Assembly: GCA_027297025.1 (NCBI GenBank) | Contig: JAPUIM010000424.1 | Span: 1 to 8,411 of the forward strand | Length of the DNA stretch: 8,411 bases | DNA from: Bacteroidota bacterium | GTDB taxonomy: Bacteria > Bacteroidota > Bacteroidia > Cytophagales > Cyclobacteriaceae | Direction: 5' to 3' | Shown here: positions 366 to 8,411 of the stretch, piece by piece | Numbering within the stretch: position 1 is the stretch's first letter | How the letters are laid out: every line of letters starts with the position of its first letter | Position numbers and translations under genes: made by a program | The notes under the pieces: model-generated | What the model was told of the DNA's origin: nothing | Database searches by the model: none | Seen by the model: the letters and a program-made list of their open reading frames with translations, nothing else

Positions 366-1541
366 TCAATTCAACAACTCATAGATCCCTGCCACACCTT
401 GGCCCCCTCCCACACAGGCGGTCACCATTCCGTATTTTTGTTTTCGCCTTCTCATCTCGTTGAAAAGCTGAATGGACAATTTGGCCCCGGAACAACCCAG
501 TGGATGACCCAATGCTATCGCGCCTCCATTTACATTCACTTTTTCTTCATCCATGCCCAACTCGCGAATCACTGCCAAGGCCTGAGTAGCAAAGGCCTCG
601 TTGAGCTCAATCTGTTCTATATCGTCTAGTTTCATGCCCGCTCTAGCCAGTGCTTTGGGTACCGCAGCTATGGGACCAATACCCATGATTCGGGGATTTA
701 CTCCTGCCGCAACATAAGAAACAAGGCGGGCGATGGGTTTTAAATTATATTTATTAACCATCTTCTCAGACATCACCACAACAAAAGCTGCGCCATCGGA
801 AGTCTGGGAAGAGTTACCGGCTGTGACCTTGCCATTGTTCTGAAATACCGGCTTCAGTTTGGCCAAGGCCTCCAGGGAAGTATCGGCCCGGGGACCTTCA
901 TCGGTGTCCACCACAAACTCCCTATCACTTTTCTTACCGGCCTTGTCCACATAAGTTTCTTTCACATTGATGGGAACGATTTCATCCTTGAATTTCCCCT
1001 CCTTGATGGCGGCTACGGCTCTTTGATGAGAACGATAGGAAAATGCATCGGCGTCTTCCCGTGATATATTGTAGTCCTGGGCTACTTGTTCTGCAGTCAA
1101 TCCCATGTTCAGGTAATATTCCGGATGTTCTGAGGCTATTTTCCAATTAAGTGCGGTTTTATAACCCATCACCGGTACCAGAGACATGGATTCCGTGCCG
1201 CCCGCAATAATGCAATCGGCAAGTCCGGCGTGGATCTTGGTGGAGGCTATGGAAATCGTTTCCAATCCAGAACCGCAATACCGATTTACAATCATCCCCG
1301 GAACCTCCATAGGAAGTGCAAGCAAGGAGATCATTCGACCCATTTGCATACCCTGTTCTGCCTCCGGGACTGCATTGCCTACAATAAGATCATCCACTTC
1401 TTTGGTGTCGAAGCCATCGATGGAATTTACCAAGTATTTTATCACGTCTACTGCTAAATCATCTGGGCGGGTGAAACGAAAACCACCTCTTTTTGCTTTT
1501 CCCACGGCGGTTCGGTATCCTGCAACTATATATGCGTCCAT
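366..1541 (-). CDS. fadA: Acetyl-CoA acyltransferase (3-ketoacyl-CoA thiolase), FadA type
   Basis: This is a complete 391-residue thiolase, the usual length for the family. It performs the last step of cytosolic fatty-acid beta-oxidation, splitting 3-ketoacyl-CoA with free CoA into acetyl-CoA and a chain two carbons shorter. The catalytic set is intact: nucleophile Cys89 in NRYCGSGLE, the NEAF motif at 314-317, His346 in GHPLGCSGA, and the second Cys376 in TACVGGGQG. The loop TAGNSSQTSDGAA (about 240-252) resembles degradative thiolases more than the biosynthetic PhaA type, where TAGNASGLNDGAA is typical; this is a family-level inference. The ATG at 1541 fits the thiolase N-terminus (DAYIVAGYRTAVGK). 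The bases before it are A-rich without a Shine-Dalgarno sequence, as is common in Bacteroidota. It lies 97 bases downstream of the fusion gene on the same strand and probably shares its transcript. An array of heptad repeats occupies the leader directly before the start. Confidence 0.95.
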   Translation of the reverse strand: MDAYIVAGYRTAVGKAKRGGFRFTRPDDLAVDVIKYLVNSIDGFDTKEVDDLIVGNAVPEAEQGMQMGRMISLLALPMEVPGMIVNRYCGSGLETISIASTKIHAGLADCIIAGGTESMSLVPVMGYKTALNWKIASEHPEYYLNMGLTAEQVAQDYNISREDADAFSYRSHQRAVAAIKEGKFKDEIVPINVKETYVDKAGKKSDREFVVDTDEGPRADTSLEALAKLKPVFQNNGKVTAGNSSQTSDGAAFVVVMSEKMVNKYNLKPIARLVSYVAAGVNPRIMGIGPIAAVPKALARAGMKLDDIEQIELNEAFATQALAVIRELGMDEEKVNVNGGAIALGHPLGCSGAKLSIQLFNEMRRRKQKYGMVTACVGGGQGVAGIYELLN

Positions 1542-1552
1542 TGTTTTAGATT

Positions 1553-1580
1553 TTTAGTATTTAGTCTTGAGTTCTGAGTT
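1553..1580. repeat. Four tandem degenerate heptads in the fadN-fadA gap
   Basis: On the plus strand four adjoining 7-base units read TTTAGTA, TTTAGTC, TTGAGTT and CTGAGTT, a consensus of YTKAGTN. A related unit, TTTTAGA, lies at 1544-1550 after a two-base break. On the transcribed strand the array ends about 11 bases before the thiolase ATG. No role is known to me. It may be a replication-slippage array or an intergenic repeat family of this genome. Confidence 0.55.
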
Positions 1581-1638
1581 TCAATGTTTCTTTTGATGCA
1601 TATAGCATTTTTTGTGTTTCTACTATCAATTAGAATAG

Positions 1639-4041
1639 CTAATTCCTCAACGGCTTACCCTTAAACAAAATACTTTGTATTCTCTCTAATGTTTTCGGTT
1701 CCCCGGTTAAACTCAAAAAGGCTTCTCTTTCCAGATCTAACAGATATTGTTCCGAGACTAATTGGGGAGCCGATAGATCACCGCCATTCATGACATATGA
1801 CAATTTTCGAACGATTTTGGCATCGTGTTCTGAAATATAATTCCCAAACAACATGCCGCCGATACCTGCCTCAAATAACGCCATTCCTCCCCTACCTTGT
1901 ACTTTTATATCTTTTCTTTCCAAAGGTTGTGTGTATCCAATATCAGCCAATTGGATGGCTCTTTCCTTTGCATCTGCAATCAAGCGGCTTCGATTCAAGG
2001 TGATATCTTCTCCATTTTGGATTAAATCCATTTCCAAGGCCTCATGAGCGGAAGTGGCAACTTTAGCGGTGGCAATGTTCATAAAATATTTCTGCAGGGT
2101 ATTGTACTCTGGATCTCCACTTTGGTAAGCATCCGCTGCCCTAAGAACCAATTCTTTGGTTCCTCCACCTGCCGGAATTAAACCCACTCCTACCTCTACC
2201 AACCCCATATAAGTTTCCGCATGCGCCTGGACCGCATCGCAGTGGAGGGAAAGCTCACAACCCCCACCTAAAGCCATTCCTGAGGTAGCAGCTACTACCG
2301 GAACAGATGAAAATCTGGCCCTTTTCATGGTGTTTTGAAACTGGGCAATCATTAAGTTGATCTCGTCAAATTCCTGATCACCGGCATACATGAAAAGCAT
2401 GGCCAAATTAGCCCCGGCTGAAAAATTGTCTGCTTCGTTTCCAATTACTAAACCCCGAAAATTCTCCTCGGCCATGGTAATGCCAACATTTATTCCTTCG
2501 ATCGCATCGGCTCCAATTGAATTCATTTTGGAGTGGAATTCAAGATTTATGATACCCTCGCCAATATCGTACAAGGTGGCACCGGCTTTTTCCCAAACAA
2601 TCTTGTCTTTGTGATAGTCGCTTAATAGGATTAAGCCTTCGGTTCCAGGGACATGTTTATAGGATTTAGACTCCAAATCATAATAAAGTGCGACTCCGTT
2701 TTTAGATTTGTAAAACGTATCATTACCTGCATCCAGCATATCGTGCACCCAGTGTGCGGGTTTATAACCCATATTTTCCATTTTTTCCGCCGTGTCTTTG
2801 ACTCCGAGTAGGTCCCAGGTCTTAAAAGGGCCAATTTCCCAACCAAATCCGGCGGAGACGGCTTGATCGATCTGATAAAGTTCATCTGCGATTTCGGGAA
2901 TCCTTAGGGAACAATACCCAAATAAGTCATAAAAAGTACGACGGTAAAACTCCCCCGCTTGATCTTCCGCATTCAGTAAAATTGGTATTCTTTCATTTAG
3001 TTTTTCGTTGTCCTTAACCGCCTCTAAACTTGGGTATTGGGCTTTGGTACGAGGACCATACTCCAGGGTTTTTAGGTCCAACTCCAGGATTTCGGTTTTC
3101 CCTTTATCATTTTTGATCTTCTTATAATAACCTTGTTTGGTTTTATCCCCCCACCACTTTTTATCATATAAAGCCTTCACTATATCGGCTAGTTTAAATC
3201 CATCTCGAGATTCATCATTGACCAGCCCTTGATGAAGGTTGTTGGCAACATTAACCATGGTATCCAATCCCACCACATCCAAGGTTCGGAAAGTTGCCGA
3301 TTTTGGCCGGCCAATCACTGGCCCTGTCATTCTATCTACTTCCCCCACGGTAAGCCCCATTTTCTCCACCGCATGAAGTCCGGACATAATCCCATATATC
3401 CCAATCCGGTTGGCAATAAATGCTGGAGTATCTTTACATAGAACAGTTTCTTTTCCTAAAAAAAGATTGCCATAATGCATTAGAAAATCGACCAGAGAGG
3501 GATCTGTTTTGGAGGTGGGGATTATTTCCAATAAACGCAAGTAGCGTGGTGGATTAAAAAAATGAGTGCCACAAAAATGTTTTTGAAAATCGGCACTCCT
3601 GCCATCAATCATTAGATTGATGGGTATGCCTGAAGTGTTAGAGGTAATGATGGTGCCGGGTTTTCTGTAACGTTCGACTTGCTCAAACACCAGTTTCTTG
3701 ATTTTAAGATCTTCTACTACAACTTCTATGATCCAGTCCATCTCTGAAATTTCTTTCATATTGTCCTCGAAATTTCCCAAAGATACCCGTGGTGCAAATG
3801 AGGAATGATACAGTGATGCGGGTTTAGATTTTATGGTATTCTGAAATGCTTGGGTGACGATCCTGTTTCTAACCGCAGGCTTATCCAAAGTAAGCCCTTT
3901 GTCTTTTTCCTGCTGATTCAATTCCTTGGGCACAATATCCAACAGCAATACCTCCACACCAATGTTGGCAAAATGACAAGCAATCCTGGATCCCATGATT
4001 CCGGAACCCAGCACGGCTACTTTTTTAATAACTCTCTTCAT
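1639..4041 (-). CDS. fadN: 3-Hydroxyacyl-CoA dehydrogenase / enoyl-CoA hydratase fusion, FadN-like
   Basis: This 800-residue bifunctional enzyme does the two middle steps of beta-oxidation: hydration of trans-2-enoyl-CoA and NAD-dependent oxidation of the 3-hydroxyacyl-CoA. The dehydrogenase comes first. Its Rossmann fingerprint GSGIMG is at 12-17, SNTS at 134-137, and the catalytic His160-Glu172 pair lies in HFFNPPRYLRLLE. The C-terminal dehydrogenase domain starts near KDTPAFIANRI (203-213). A second, more diverged dehydrogenase-C-like segment spans about 350-440. The hydratase domain fills about 485-700, with oxyanion-hole motif NFSAGANL (539-546), GGGCEL containing Glu596, and GLVEVGVGLIPAGGGT containing Glu616. 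The 20-residue spacing of these two Glu matches Glu119/Glu139 of E. coli FadB. The domain order is the reverse of E. coli FadB and matches Bacillus FadN (about 789 residues), which is also followed by a thiolase gene. The ATG overlaps the end of marR by 17 bases, suggesting translational coupling. Confidence 0.94.
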   Translation of the reverse strand: MKRVIKKVAVLGSGIMGSRIACHFANIGVEVLLLDIVPKELNQQEKDKGLTLDKPAVRNRIVTQAFQNTIKSKPASLYHSSFAPRVSLGNFEDNMKEISEMDWIIEVVVEDLKIKKLVFEQVERYRKPGTIITSNTSGIPINLMIDGRSADFQKHFCGTHFFNPPRYLRLLEIIPTSKTDPSLVDFLMHYGNLFLGKETVLCKDTPAFIANRIGIYGIMSGLHAVEKMGLTVGEVDRMTGPVIGRPKSATFRTLDVVGLDTMVNVANNLHQGLVNDESRDGFKLADIVKALYDKKWWGDKTKQGYYKKIKNDKGKTEILELDLKTLEYGPRTKAQYPSLEAVKDNEKLNERIPILLNAEDQAGEFYRRTFYDLFGYCSLRIPEIADELYQIDQAVSAGFGWEIGPFKTWDLLGVKDTAEKMENMGYKPAHWVHDMLDAGNDTFYKSKNGVALYYDLESKSYKHVPGTEGLILLSDYHKDKIVWEKAGATLYDIGEGIINLEFHSKMNSIGADAIEGINVGITMAEENFRGLVIGNEADNFSAGANLAMLFMYAGDQEFDEINLMIAQFQNTMKRARFSSVPVVAATSGMALGGGCELSLHCDAVQAHAETYMGLVEVGVGLIPAGGGTKELVLRAADAYQSGDPEYNTLQKYFMNIATAKVATSAHEALEMDLIQNGEDITLNRSRLIADAKERAIQLADIGYTQPLERKDIKVQGRGGMALFEAGIGGMLFGNYISEHDAKIVRKLSYVMNGGDLSAPQLVSEQYLLDLEREAFLSLTGEPKTLERIQSILFKGKPLRN

Positions 4042-4495
4042 TCTTTAAAATAGACGGTTGAGTGTAAATTTTATTACTATCAATTATTTTATTGATTTCA
4101 TTTATTACTTCAAAAAAAACCTTCAGTTTACGTTCCGGAATTTTAGCTTTAACCGCATTATCAAATGCTATTACAGTATTTCTGGCAATATCTTTTTTGC
4201 TTTTTCCTTCCTTGGTTAAAAATATCCTGACCGATCGGCCATCATAGGGATCTGGTTTTTTGAAAATTAGTTGCTTTTCCTCCATTGATTTTAACATGCG
4301 GGTTAAACTCCGCGCTTCTAATCCCATCAATGGCGCTATCTTAGTAGCCGGAGTACCCTCATGAGAGTCGATATTTAATAAAACAAATCCAATAGAGGTA
4401 GTAATGTCGAACTTGATGGCCTGTTGATTATACATCCTGGAAATGGCATGCCAGGCAGCTTTAATTTGATAATCAACCGATTCTTCTTGTTTCAT
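4025..4495 (-). CDS. MarR-family transcriptional regulator of the fad operon
   Basis: This is a 156-residue winged-helix regulator of typical MarR length. The N-terminal dimerisation helix covers about 7-30. The helix-turn-helix is about 47-77 (TPATKIAPLMGLEARSLTRMLKSMEEKQLI), and the wing carries the signature DGRSVRIFLTKEG at about 85-97. A C-terminal helical dimerisation segment follows (about 98-140). It is the first gene of a minus-strand operon with the hydratase/dehydrogenase fusion and the thiolase, and its last codons overlap the fusion gene. Its target is therefore most likely its own operon, through the 18-base palindrome 31 bases upstream of its start. By analogy with other beta-oxidation regulators the ligand may be an acyl-CoA or fatty acid; nothing in the sequence proves that. 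The ATG at 4495 gives a normal MarR N-terminus. Family and fold are secure; target and ligand are inferred. Confidence 0.92.
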   Translation of the reverse strand: MKQEESVDYQIKAAWHAISRMYNQQAIKFDITTSIGFVLLNIDSHEGTPATKIAPLMGLEARSLTRMLKSMEEKQLIFKKPDPYDGRSVRIFLTKEGKSKKDIARNTVIAFDNAVKAKIPERKLKVFFEVINEINKIIDSNKIYTQPSILKNEESY

Positions 4496-4563: not shown

Positions 4564-6378
4564 TTATGGTAAGTCACCCCTCAAAGTTCGAAACCTCTTT
4601 CTAGCCTCACTGGTATATATACTCCCAGGGTATTTGACCAAAAAGTCCTGATAAATTTCCATGGCTTTTTCTTTGAGATTTAAGTGTTCTTCATAAATGG
4701 TTCCCATCATGAAATAGGCATCGTCACTTCGAATATCTTGTTGTTGGTCCTCTACAATCTTTTGAAGTATTGAAAGGGCAGTTTGAAAGTTCCCGATTTC
4801 CTGATGGATCGTGGCTTGCATCCAATATATATCGTCGGTGAGTGAATGACCCTTGTAATGATTAAGCATACCATCTAACTTTTTCAAAGCGTCATTTTTT
4901 TTATTTTGGAATAATAGCAGTTCCACTGCCGCATATTCTTTCATGGCTACATCAGAAGTATCCAATACCGTATTTTCCTTTATCAACAGACTAAGAGAAA
5001 TTGCGTCGTTGGAAATTTCCCGGGTAGTTGCTTCTTTCAGGATATCCAGGTGGCTCTGGGCCAATGCAAAATCACCCTTGTAATAATGCAACTTGGCGTT
5101 ACGGAGTTTTGCTTCGTAACCCAAAGGTGCTTCTTTATTAGCCTTTTCAACTTGAGAATATAAAAGTGTGGATTCCCAGGGTTCGCCTATTAGTAAGTAA
5201 ATATCACCCAAATCCAGTTTGGCATTAGCTATTAACCTGGGGCCAGATTTTGGGGTATTAATTATCTTATTGAGGATAAGAATGGCCTTATCCTTTTCAT
5301 CAAGATAAAAGGCATGTAATAAAGCTTTGCTCCTTAAGGCTTGCAGGGTAGTTTTATTAAGACCCACTTCTTCTACCAGGTGATTATATTCAATGATCAA
5401 CTCCTGGATATCAGATGTTTGTACAGGAAAGGTATTTTTAATTCTTTCTTCTTTGGCATTGATCAAATACCTTTTGGACAGGACATAATTAAACGACTTT
5501 GGATACTCTTTAACTATATAGCTAAAAATTTTAATAGCATTTTCGTAATCCTTGTTTTGCAAGGCCATGACACCGATATCCATTACTTTGTTCCCTTCTG
5601 TCTTCAATCGTCTATCTAGAGAACGCGCCTGAACAAAAGCTCCGTAAAAGTTCTTTTGTTGAAGATTGACCCAGATCAACAACTCATTTAAAACAAATTG
5701 ATCGGGATTTTTTTGAACTTTTTCATATAAAATTGTTTCCAGTGTTTTAAGGTCTTCCTCTTCTGAAAGGAGGTTTTGAAGAATATTCTTAACATAATTG
5801 ATATTCTTGGGATTTAGGTTAACGTAATTGAGATACTCCACTACCATTTGATCTCTGTTGTTCAGCACCCGGTAAATATTGGCCATTTCCAATGAATAAA
5901 GAGATGGTTCGTTTAGCGCCTTGCGACCGCGTTGGTAAGCTTCCAGTGCATATTCCGGAAACTGATTGCTAGACCAGTATTGGGCACATATTCGCAGTTT
6001 GTATTGATCCCTTTCCACCGTTTTAATTATGCCTTTAAAATTTTTATCTGCCAATTCCAAATTGCCCATCCTGGTGAAAAGAATTCCTTTATCTATTTTA
6101 TAGAATATGTTATCAGGAAACTGCCTAATCAGCTTACTTATATATTTCTCTGCTAGTTTATAATCTTGGGTGTTGATTAGTACATTAAAGTAATTATTAT
6201 GGATAAGGGGGATGTTCCTGGTTTTATTTGCCAAGTCTCCATAAATATCTTTTGCTTTGGTAAAATCTCCCTGGATATAATATTCATTAGCCAATTGGAT
6301 TTGATCGTTGTTTTGAGCAAATCCACAAGTGGTTATTAAAATAAATATTAAAAATTCGTAGAGATTATATGGCTTCAT
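4564..6378 (-). CDS. Secreted tetratricopeptide-repeat protein
   Basis: This is a 604-residue protein with an N-terminal signal peptide: a hydrophobic core (about 9-17) and a probable signal peptidase I site after GFA, so maturation would start at Gln22. The Cys18 context ITTC is a poor lipobox, so I do not call it a lipoprotein. The rest is almost wholly helical repeats. Clear TPR-like units include LANEYYIQGDFTKAKDIYGDL (starting about residue 29), the next units with DYKLAEKYISKLIRQFPDN and NLELADKNFKGII, and two near the C-terminus at about 515-548 and 552-585. The last one ends in YPGSIYTSEARKRF, like the repeats of BamD/YbgF envelope proteins. TPR arrays bind proteins, so a periplasmic scaffold or assembly role is plausible, but no partner is shown. 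The ATG at 6378 begins the signal peptide directly. The gene lies 68 bases upstream of marR on the same strand, but the operator/promoter in the gap suggests separate control. The AT-rich 374-base candidate origin lies immediately upstream. Confidence 0.88.
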   Translation of the reverse strand: MKPYNLYEFLIFILITTCGFAQNNDQIQLANEYYIQGDFTKAKDIYGDLANKTRNIPLIHNNYFNVLINTQDYKLAEKYISKLIRQFPDNIFYKIDKGILFTRMGNLELADKNFKGIIKTVERDQYKLRICAQYWSSNQFPEYALEAYQRGRKALNEPSLYSLEMANIYRVLNNRDQMVVEYLNYVNLNPKNINYVKNILQNLLSEEEDLKTLETILYEKVQKNPDQFVLNELLIWVNLQQKNFYGAFVQARSLDRRLKTEGNKVMDIGVMALQNKDYENAIKIFSYIVKEYPKSFNYVLSKRYLINAKEERIKNTFPVQTSDIQELIIEYNHLVEEVGLNKTTLQALRSKALLHAFYLDEKDKAILILNKIINTPKSGPRLIANAKLDLGDIYLLIGEPWESTLLYSQVEKANKEAPLGYEAKLRNAKLHYYKGDFALAQSHLDILKEATTREISNDAISLSLLIKENTVLDTSDVAMKEYAAVELLLFQNKKNDALKKLDGMLNHYKGHSLTDDIYWMQATIHQEIGNFQTALSILQKIVEDQQQDIRSDDAYFMMGTIYEEHLNLKEKAMEIYQDFLVKYPGSIYTSEARKRFRTLRGDLP

Positions 6379-6420
6379 TCACTTATAAACGATTTAGTAT
6401 TAATGAAATAATATATTAAA

Positions 6421-6438
6421 TATTATTATTAATTATTA
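6421..6438 (-). other. DnaA-trio-like TAA triplet run
   Basis: Read on the minus strand this is TAATAATTAATAATAATA, separated from the paired DnaA boxes by only the three bases GAC. DnaA-trio elements are repeated 3-mers with a central A that guide DnaA from double-stranded boxes onto the strand being opened. The strand, order and short spacing are right for such an element. Simple AT-richness could also produce it. Confidence 0.45.
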
Positions 6439-6441
6439 GTC

Positions 6442-6459
6442 TGTGGATATTGTGGAAAA
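6442..6459 (-). other. Two abutting head-to-tail DnaA-box-like 9-mers
   Basis: On the minus strand the two sites read TTTTCCACA (6459-6451) and ATATCCACA (6450-6442). Each differs from TTATCCACA at one position, and they touch without a gap in the same orientation. Both keep the TCCACA core. Tandem boxes next to a triplet run are the core of known bacterial unwinding elements. Confidence 0.6.
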
Positions 6460-6517
6460 ATTATTAATAAAATTGTTGTTATATATATATGTGCATTACT
6501 TGCTATTTGTAACCTTT

Positions 6518-6526
6518 TTATCCACT
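6518..6526 (+). other. DnaA-box-like 9-mer
   Basis: The plus strand reads TTATCCACT, an 8/9 match to TTATCCACA with only the last base different. It lies 58 bases from the paired boxes and points the opposite way. Confidence 0.55.
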
Positions 6527-6741
6527 ATTAATTCACCATTATTTATTTGATTTTCAATCTTATATCAAATGGGTGTTAGTAACCCCCTAGTTACAATATG
6601 TTCGGTCTATCAAAAAAGATTGTTAACTAGTTGGTGTTTAAATGTTGGTTATTTCCAATGCTGTATCGAATAAATATATCAACGAAAGAGATACACACAA
6701 AGTGCTTGTTAGTCAACAGTTTTTACCCAACTTTTGAACAG

Positions 6742-6750
6742 TTATTCACC
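6742..6750 (+). other. Weak DnaA-box-like 9-mer
   Basis: The plus strand reads TTATTCACC. It fits the relaxed TTATNCACA pattern except for the last base (7/9 to the strict consensus). It lies against the stop codon of the Ig-like gene. Taken alone it would not be called. Confidence 0.3.
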
Positions 6751-6752
6751 GA

Positions 6753-8411
6753 TTAAAAAACCATAAGTTCATTTTCTAACTCCCAATTTTTTTTGACCGG
6801 AATAATATCCGGATAAAAAATCACAGGTTCCGGTTCCACTCCTTCTAATATATTCCCAAAATCCCATTTTCCATTATTGTTTTTATCCTGCAGTATTCGA
6901 ATAAAGTACTTACCTGGTGGAACATCTCTGAATTCATAATCTGCTTGGCTAACAATCTCCTGAATAACTTTAAATTTTGTGTTTAAAAGTTGTATGAAAA
7001 AGCTAGAATCGCTGGTAACAATTGATCCCCGAATGATACCGAAATTTAGAGGATTTTTAAAAGAATACCGTTTTTCAACTACAGCTGAACTATCATTGTC
7101 GGCAGTAATAAAGGAGCCTCGAGCCATAAAAAGTTTGAATTGGCCGGGAGGGGTTGAAAGATAACCAATAGGATTAAGAGGTAAATATCTGTGTCGGGCT
7201 CTGGAATCATCTCGTTCAATTGTATCAGGATCGTAACCTAATAAATCTATTAAGAGACTCCGGTCATACGTTCCTAAGCTATCATTATGCCACAACTGGA
7301 CCAAACTATCAATTCTTTTATTAAGCTCTCTTTGCAGTCTTATAATTTCCAATTTTCTATTATCAGCTTCTTTAAAAAGTTGAGGATCAATGTACTTTTT
7401 AAAGGTAAGTTTGGTATGATATTTATCCCAGATCAGATCCTTTTGAGGGTCAAAAGGAAGGATAGCTAAACTGTCCAATTCAATGAACAGGCTATCGGTA
7501 TTGACAGTGGTAATTGGTTTATTAAAACGGTAAATACCTTCAAAATTGTTATCAACGCTTTCCCGGTTTTTAGGTTCAAAACTTTCCTTGAACTCTGAAG
7601 GCTTTCTTTTACTTTCCTGAAATTGTAGATAAAATAGTGTATCTAATGCAAAACTTATGGAGTCATTAACCTGTATTTTTACCGCCAAACTATCTTTAAT
7701 CGAAAATGTTTGGTAAATTCTAATACCTCTATTTTCATCAATGAAATTACTGAATAAGGTATCGGCATTGGTGGAGGTTAATGTGTAATCAATCAGTGGT
7801 TTGCTAAATGCTAGTTCATAGTACTTTCCCGTAGATCTATTTCCTATTAATTCTAGTTCAGATATGTCCAATTTTTGAATGGGGATGACCCAGAAGGATG
7901 CACTGTCTGTATCGACATCCGGATCAATTGGATCAAATAAGAAACCGTACTTTTCCCGGCTGGATTCATTTTGTAAGTTTCGGTTATTGTCTATAAAAGC
8001 ATAAATCTCAAACTGAACATTTTTAATATTTTCCAATTTGAATACTCCAGATTTGTTGGTGCGGGTAAAATACCTGGGTGAGCCAGAGAATATATCCAGG
8101 GTATCGGTTAATTCATAGATGGCAACTACTGAATTTTCAATAGGCTGAGCCGTAAGCAAATCGATTACAGTTCCTTGTATTATCAATGAGTCTAGATAAT
8201 TTCCTGTACTAAAAGCGATTACAGCGTTTTCAGCAGGATTGCCTTCAGTAATGTCTTTAACTGCGTCGGCAAAATTAAATGTATAGGTGGTTGAATCTTT
8301 TAACTTTTCATTTAGAATGATGGTGAGATCATATTTACCTGTTTTGTAATCGAATTCTTCATCTAAACGGGGAGTGATAATGAGTTTATTATTGAGATTA
8401 TCAATAATAAT
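6753..8411 (-). CDS. Ig-like-domain surface/envelope protein, N-terminus beyond the right edge
   Basis: The frame is open from the window edge to the stop at 6753, giving 552 visible codons. A start at 8186 would be a TTG in the middle of conserved sequence, so the gene is partial here. The first visible part (NKLIITPRLDEEFDYKTGKYDLTI, then KDSTTYTFNFADAVKDITEGNP and AFSTG) is the end of a bacterial Ig-like (Big_5/SbsA-type) domain. It is followed by a carboxypeptidase-regulatory-like beta-sandwich (IIQGTVIDLLTAQPIENSVVAIY, KSGVFKLENIKN, IYAFIDNNRN). A long middle segment of beta-rich, unrecognised sequence follows. The C-terminus is again prealbumin-like (FRDVPPGKYFIRILQDKNNNGKWDFGN), with an Asp/Asn-rich DxNxNGxWD loop that could bind calcium. 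Proteins of this build in Bacteroidota normally carry a signal peptide or lipobox, which would lie outside the window. No enzymatic motif is visible; a structural or surface role is inferred. Confidence 0.88.
   Translation of the reverse strand: MIIDNLNNKLIITPRLDEEFDYKTGKYDLTIILNEKLKDSTTYTFNFADAVKDITEGNPAENAVIAFSTGNYLDSLIIQGTVIDLLTAQPIENSVVAIYELTDTLDIFSGSPRYFTRTNKSGVFKLENIKNVQFEIYAFIDNNRNLQNESSREKYGFLFDPIDPDVDTDSASFWVIPIQKLDISELELIGNRSTGKYYELAFSKPLIDYTLTSTNADTLFSNFIDENRGIRIYQTFSIKDSLAVKIQVNDSISFALDTLFYLQFQESKRKPSEFKESFEPKNRESVDNNFEGIYRFNKPITTVNTDSLFIELDSLAILPFDPQKDLIWDKYHTKLTFKKYIDPQLFKEADNRKLEIIRLQRELNKRIDSLVQLWHNDSLGTYDRSLLIDLLGYDPDTIERDDSRARHRYLPLNPIGYLSTPPGQFKLFMARGSFITADNDSSAVVEKRYSFKNPLNFGIIRGSIVTSDSSFFIQLLNTKFKVIQEIVSQADYEFRDVPPGKYFIRILQDKNNNGKWDFGNILEGVEPEPVIFYPDIIPVKKNWELENELMVF

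Follow-up and report, generated by a model that had tools for sequence, protein, structure and literature searches.

A gene-free gap between a TPR gene and an Ig-like gene as the predicted chromosomal origin of a Cytophagales bacterium

The window, the whole stretch of 8,411 nucleotides analysed here, is the entire contig C362 of a draft genome (2.66 Mb, 560 contigs, 82% complete). All five of its named genes, the thiolase, FadB-like, MarR, TPR and Ig-like genes, are on the minus strand. The TPR start codon ends at 6378 and the Ig-like stop codon is at 6753. The gap separating them is 374 bp long with a GC content of 25.9%; this location, already given in the preliminary description, was verified from the gene coordinates. 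The gap was scanned with the DnaA-box consensus TTATCCACA, and the following features were recorded.

4564-6378, minus strand: TPR gene, flanking marker
6379-6752, no strand: predicted oriC, the gene-free gap from TPR gene to Ig-like gene (from its boxes, and from skew, synteny and box density in relatives)
6383-6442, no strand: predicted DNA unwinding element, the least stable 60-mer of the window (nearest-neighbour profile, z = 3.58)
6418-6439, minus strand: predicted DnaA-trio run, read from the sequence with the rule of PMC8287927
6442-6450, minus strand: DnaA box 2, ATATCCACA, downstream half of an abutting pair, one mismatch
6451-6459, minus strand: DnaA box 1, TTTTCCACA, upstream half of the abutting pair, one mismatch
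6518-6526, plus strand: DnaA box 3, TTATCCACT, in opposite orientation, one mismatch
6742-6750, plus strand: weak box, TTATTCACC, two mismatches, by the stop codon of the Ig-like gene
6753-8411, minus strand: Ig-like (Big_5) gene, flanking marker, 5' end truncated by the contig end

Our recount agreed with the three one-mismatch boxes, two of them abutting, that had been reported for this gap; no exact match to the consensus was detected within it, which counts against an origin. Besides the weak box, one other two-mismatch site is present at 6490-6498 on the minus strand. The gap therefore holds, as an oriC should, a cluster of boxes within AT-rich intergenic DNA, and the TA alternation noticed before was located at 6481-6490. 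Since a low GC content increases the number of chance matches, the boxes might represent only a chance cluster in an AT-rich gap. The earlier estimate of about 0.08 chance matches is right for equal base frequencies only, and first-order Markov copies of the gap (n=5000) gave a mean of 0.20 one-mismatch boxes. Three such boxes were reached in 0.18% of these copies (P = 0.0018), which argues against a chance cluster, although the two-mismatch count taken alone is not significant in the gap (5 observed versus 2.24 expected, P = 0.07, Markov copies). A search of the window for structured RNA gave no Rfam family reaching its gathering score.

Next to the paired boxes, the unwinding element expected of an oriC was found at 6383-6442, as judged from computed stability. 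In the direction from the Ig-like gene to the TPR gene, the window reads TTTTCCACA-ATATCCACA-GA-CTAATAATTAATAATAATATTT, and is AT-rich from there to the TPR start. The trio run has the letters CTA ATA ATT and then, shifted by one base, TTA ATA ATA ATA TTT; its distance is 2 bp to box 2 and 11 bp to box 1, its first trio is 3'-GAT-5', and three trios are in frame. According to the passages of PMC8287927 that set out the rule for the basal unwinding system (BUS), tandem DnaA boxes with up to 2 and up to 4 mismatches go together with three or more 3'-NAN-5' trios, no more than 16 bp away from a box. The gap carries both parts, abutting boxes with one mismatch each and three trios, the general rule being permissive in AT-rich DNA. 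This permissiveness led us to reject the trio rule as a sole criterion. A tighter test, with up to one and up to two mismatches in the pair and the trios within 6 bp, was passed by 3 of 3000 randomised gaps and by none of 200 randomised windows, a further point against a chance cluster. Across the 2.4 Mb sampled from closed genomes of relatives, single stretches yielded one match, at the gap of G238, and the gap of G004 also passed once adjoining stretches were joined. The rarity of such matches stems mostly from the paired boxes, and a run of three trios by itself is common in AT-rich DNA.

Six relatives with closed genomes were available for comparison, five of them from the family of the window (G318, G238, G217, G336 and G286) and one from another family (G004). 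In all six, the order mnmG, Ig-like gene, gap and TPR gene was conserved, and a methyltransferase match lay in the interval from mnmG to the Ig-like gene in five, with none in G336. In each of the nine relatives checked, mnmG and the TPR gene were 2.6-3.1 kb apart. The draft of the window has the opening 225 codons of mnmG where contig C254 breaks off, a position compatible with the gene order of the relatives but no proof of it. In five of the six closed relatives, the least stable 60-mer of 40 kb coincided with the gap or the TPR start, the one in G318 starting about a dozen bases into the TPR gene; in G286, the 60-mer of the gap and TPR start ranked second, by 0.001. The thiolase, FadB-like and MarR genes, which adjoin the predicted origin at 366-4495 of the window, form a block that also comes after the TPR gene in G318 and G238.

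The Ig-like gene alone was rejected as an origin marker, as 21 of 25 Ig-like relatives carried no box or one box in the 500 bp after the match. At least three boxes in these 500 bp were detected only in L003, L004, L005 and L011, all from Cytophagales or Cyclobacteriaceae, and the same four were the only ones of the 25 with both the methyltransferase and the TPR gene on their stretches; mnmG was present in three of them, and the contig of L003 stops short of it. The assignment of the window to Cytophagales is inferred from the names of the Ig-like relatives and the taxonomy. Matches to the TPR gene, part of them weak, were obtained in 360 of the 391 genomes of the order.

Box density was then compared over 38 loci (the window, 29 TPR loci, the four Ig-like relatives, G286, G067, G004 and G113), with a box defined by at most one mismatch and the gap delimited by the Ig-like stop and the first position of the TPR match. 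An Ig-like gene lay upstream of the TPR gene in 34 of these loci. The 34 gaps, including that of the window and that of G113 (1778 bp), which may include coding DNA, add up to 12,906 bp and contained 150 boxes, or 11.62 per kb. In the flanking DNA, most of it coding, 75 boxes were counted over 116,144 bp, or 0.65 per kb, an 18-fold difference. The preliminary description had asked for conservation of the boxes in relatives keeping both flanking genes, and at least one box was indeed found in all 34 gaps, the window counted, and at least two in 29. In 21 of the 34, a box lies within 60 bp of the Ig-like stop codon, and several relatives have a stronger box where the window has its weak one at 6742-6750. 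Taken with the Markov and random-copy counts, the presence of boxes in every gap of this gene order makes a chance cluster scarcely credible. In the other four loci (L051, L053, L055 and L056), the TPR gene has no Ig-like gene upstream and 0 boxes in the preceding 620 bp; TPR gene and origin appear to be separated there. Per 500 bp, the candidate gap exceeded all other sampled stretches in five of the six closed genomes; the gap of G318, with 3 boxes versus 4 in another sampled stretch, counts against the origin reading, and box count alone was rejected as an origin criterion for this reason.

The GC skew of the window itself was uninformative, as had been noted before: the cumulative curve drops to about 4.5 kb and then stays nearly flat. 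Because the window's draft is split into 560 contigs, the skew test was moved to the relatives, where 120 stretches of 20 kb (2.4 Mb in total) were sampled over the six closed genomes, and the minimum was read from the interpolated cumulative GC skew. Sampling was denser around the gap than in the rest of each genome, which weighs against the origin reading. The earlier proposal that the skew minimum should fall at the gap was borne out to within 50 kb in five of the six closed relatives: the minimum lay 11 kb from the orthologous gap in G318, 2 kb in G238, 36 kb in G217, 35 kb in G336 and 48 kb in G286. In these five, the gap stood at a height of 0.002-0.014 on the skew curve and dnaA at 0.40-0.98. 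The arms of G318 were the clearest, with 10 of 10 samples positive on one arm and 9 of 10 negative on the other, the single off-sign sample (+0.001) adjoining the gap. The arms of G238, G217 and G336 were noisier, with the expected sign per arm, in an earlier sample set, in 8/9 and 7/11, 6/9 and 11/11, and 7/9 and 11/11 samples, respectively. Two skew results count against the origin reading. An equal-arm model placed the switch of G217 at 42-122 kb from the gap, and the same proposal failed in G004, in which the sampled minimum was 1.22 Mb off, the gap stood at a height of 0.78 and the skew was weak throughout. Either the chromosome of G004 is rearranged or its skew is too weak for reading. 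Chromosome C1 of G004 is closed and 8.98 Mb long, and carries 13 boxes in its gap despite the discordant skew.

As first described, the candidate origin has no dnaA beside it. In the window's draft, dnaA is on a separate contig, C497, as a frame of 508 aa whose score exceeds the TIGR00362 (DnaA equivalog) cut-off, and in all six closed relatives it is 0.8-2.8 Mb away from the gap. The gap thus departs from the dnaA-adjacent arrangement of many bacteria. As oriC of Bacteroidetes is commonly distant from dnaA, according to a passage in PMC4755523, the lack of an adjacent dnaA is not unusual. The dnaA contig was considered as a rival origin and rejected: over its 5826 bp it has three one-mismatch boxes, all of them single, and lacks the paired motif. 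In addition to the true dnaA, C1 of G336 has short stretches at 2591131, 3013256 and 4580529 that match the DnaA AAA+ family, each with 27.2 bits; the three are possibly mobile-element copies with an IstB-like ATPase.

Many relatives share the plan of the window, with boxes that are often phased by 8 bp (TTATCCACGTATCCACA) and then repeats of TAATA. An abutting box pair was present inside the gap in five of the six closed relatives, G318 being without it, which counts against the origin reading, and a pair followed by at least three trios within 6 bp in two of the six (G238 and G004). From the window and six relatives of the same plan, we built the strict pattern TCCACN{1,2}TATCCACAN{2,5}TAATA, which gave 17 matches in 16 of the 391 genomes; the reversed pattern gave 1. 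Fifteen of the 17 either followed the Ig-like gene or preceded the TPR gene, and 8 of these 15 are independent of the construction of the pattern. Directly upstream of the TPR gene were 12 matches by coordinates, together with those of G113 and G067 by fetched loci. The absence of the pattern from 375 of the 391 genomes counts against the origin reading, and because of it the strict motif marks only part of the order. The remaining two matches were elsewhere, on contig C23 of G002 and at 650,091 of G217 (L101; C1:650091-650113), the latter a second paired-box and TAATA match about 188 kb off the predicted origin and a further point against the origin reading. In G253 (L197; C17:322000-328000), the motif follows the Ig-like gene at a distance of about 0.36 kb. 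The 6-kb stretch gave no TPR match, and the segment of about 2.1 kb from the motif to the MarR gene is blank for the TPR proteins used; here the TPR gene is diverged or replaced.

These observations also bear on an alternative in which the origin lies elsewhere and the gap serves either as the TPR promoter region, with transcription regulated by DnaA, or as a DnaA-titrating site. The boxes do stand upstream of a gene start, and the match in G217 at 650,091 illustrates that a paired-box motif is possible away from the gap. Such a role is, however, highly unlikely, as the skew minimum tracks the gap in five of the six closed relatives, the TPR genes located elsewhere have no boxes in the 620 bp in front of them, and G253 retains the motif beside the Ig-like gene although its 6-kb stretch lacks a TPR match.

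A second question is whether the locus is oriC in the relatives and the origin has moved in the species of the window, leaving the gap as a decayed remnant. The window has 3 boxes, none of them exact, versus 6-13 per 500 bp in five of the six closed relatives, and the discordant skew of G004 also leans this way. On the other hand, the paired boxes, the trio run and the stability minimum are all retained in the window, and the strict pattern has a single match in its 2.66-Mb draft, that of the window. Decay of a former origin is accordingly a very unlikely explanation. The proposal that the gap is a chromosomal origin was supported by the skew of relatives, the retained boxes and the gene order, and we consider the gap at 6379-6752 to be the chromosomal oriC of this bacterium with a probability of about 0.92.

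If this is the origin, DnaA, encoded on another contig, would bind the abutting boxes at 6442-6459, and the box at 6518-6526, perhaps with the weak box at 6742-6750, would assist its binding to the pair. From the pair, a DnaA filament would extend toward the TPR gene onto the single-stranded trio run at 6418-6439, in the manner published for basal unwinding. The strands would separate in 6383-6442, helicase would be loaded and two forks would then depart in opposite directions.

The predicted element resembles the BUS of Bacillus subtilis and others, in which, according to passages in PMC8287927 and PMC6669920, tandem boxes are followed by a trio run starting with 3'-GAT-5' and the trios are located 11 bp from the first box. 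The unwinding region of B. subtilis lies between dnaA and dnaN, as described in PMC6669920, whereas dnaA is distant from the gap of the window. The main text of PMC8287927, searched by word, contains no Bacteroid-, Cytophag- or Flavobacteri-.

With respect to position, oriC of Flavobacteriaceae has been predicted beside mnmG in Algorimicrobium (PMC12843772) and Mariniflexile (PMC11278836, in which the figure legend swaps ori and ter relative to the text). As given in passages of these two papers, the predicted origins are like the gap of the window in lying away from dnaA, in adjoining mnmG and in their concordant GC skew. They differ in belonging to another order, and the passages concerned name neither an Ig-like or TPR neighbour nor an unwinding motif. 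Because both papers predict such origins, a dnaA-distant oriC beside mnmG is already known. The present analysis adds the flanking Ig-like and TPR genes and the paired-box element, with tests on closed relatives. Among literature titles and the openings of abstracts, we found no origin flanked by Ig-like and TPR genes for this order; DoriC may well hold such predictions. Plasmids with oriC of Cytophaga hutchinsonii were reportedly described by Xu et al. in 2012. The oriC of C. hutchinsonii, which belongs to the same order as the window, Cytophagales, drives plasmids. The use of oriC plasmids in this species is also mentioned in a passage of PMC5288383.

Origins of Bacteroidota cannot be located by searching for dnaA, and those in the parts of the literature cited here are predictions from sequence. 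The recurrent order of mnmG, usually a methyltransferase gene, the Ig-like gene, gap and TPR gene makes the origin placeable in fragmented drafts, and the paired-box motif helps its placement in part of the group. The position of the origin is needed for growth rates from metagenome coverage, for origin plasmids in genetics and for a first test of unwinding by a Cytophagales DnaA.

The relation of the boxes to the TPR start varies among the loci. In 15 of the 34 gaps (L029, L031-L035, L037, L038, L040, L043, L045, L046, L004, L005 and L011), the last forward box has its end at -14 to +22 bp relative to the first base of the most upstream TPR ATG, and so abuts or overlaps the region of the TPR start codon; in the window, 63 bp separate the last box from the TPR start. 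At least three trios follow within 16 bp of the last box in 11 of these 15 loci, by the permissive rule, and in 8 of the 11 the trio run begins inside the TPR reading frame, within the first dozen codons. Alternative TPR starts before codon 18 were present in L033 and L034 only (codon 4). In the 8 loci, part of the predicted origin would be translated, giving predicted N-termini such as MTYYNYIYIYIIK. A tentative and rather doubtful extension is that the origin of the order is fused to the TPR gene: the DnaA filament would run towards or into the gene, part of the origin would be translated as the N-terminal residues of the protein and DnaA loading would also switch the gene, so that the gap would serve both as oriC and as a replication-timed promoter. 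The TPR protein that would be controlled in this manner looks like an exported protein.
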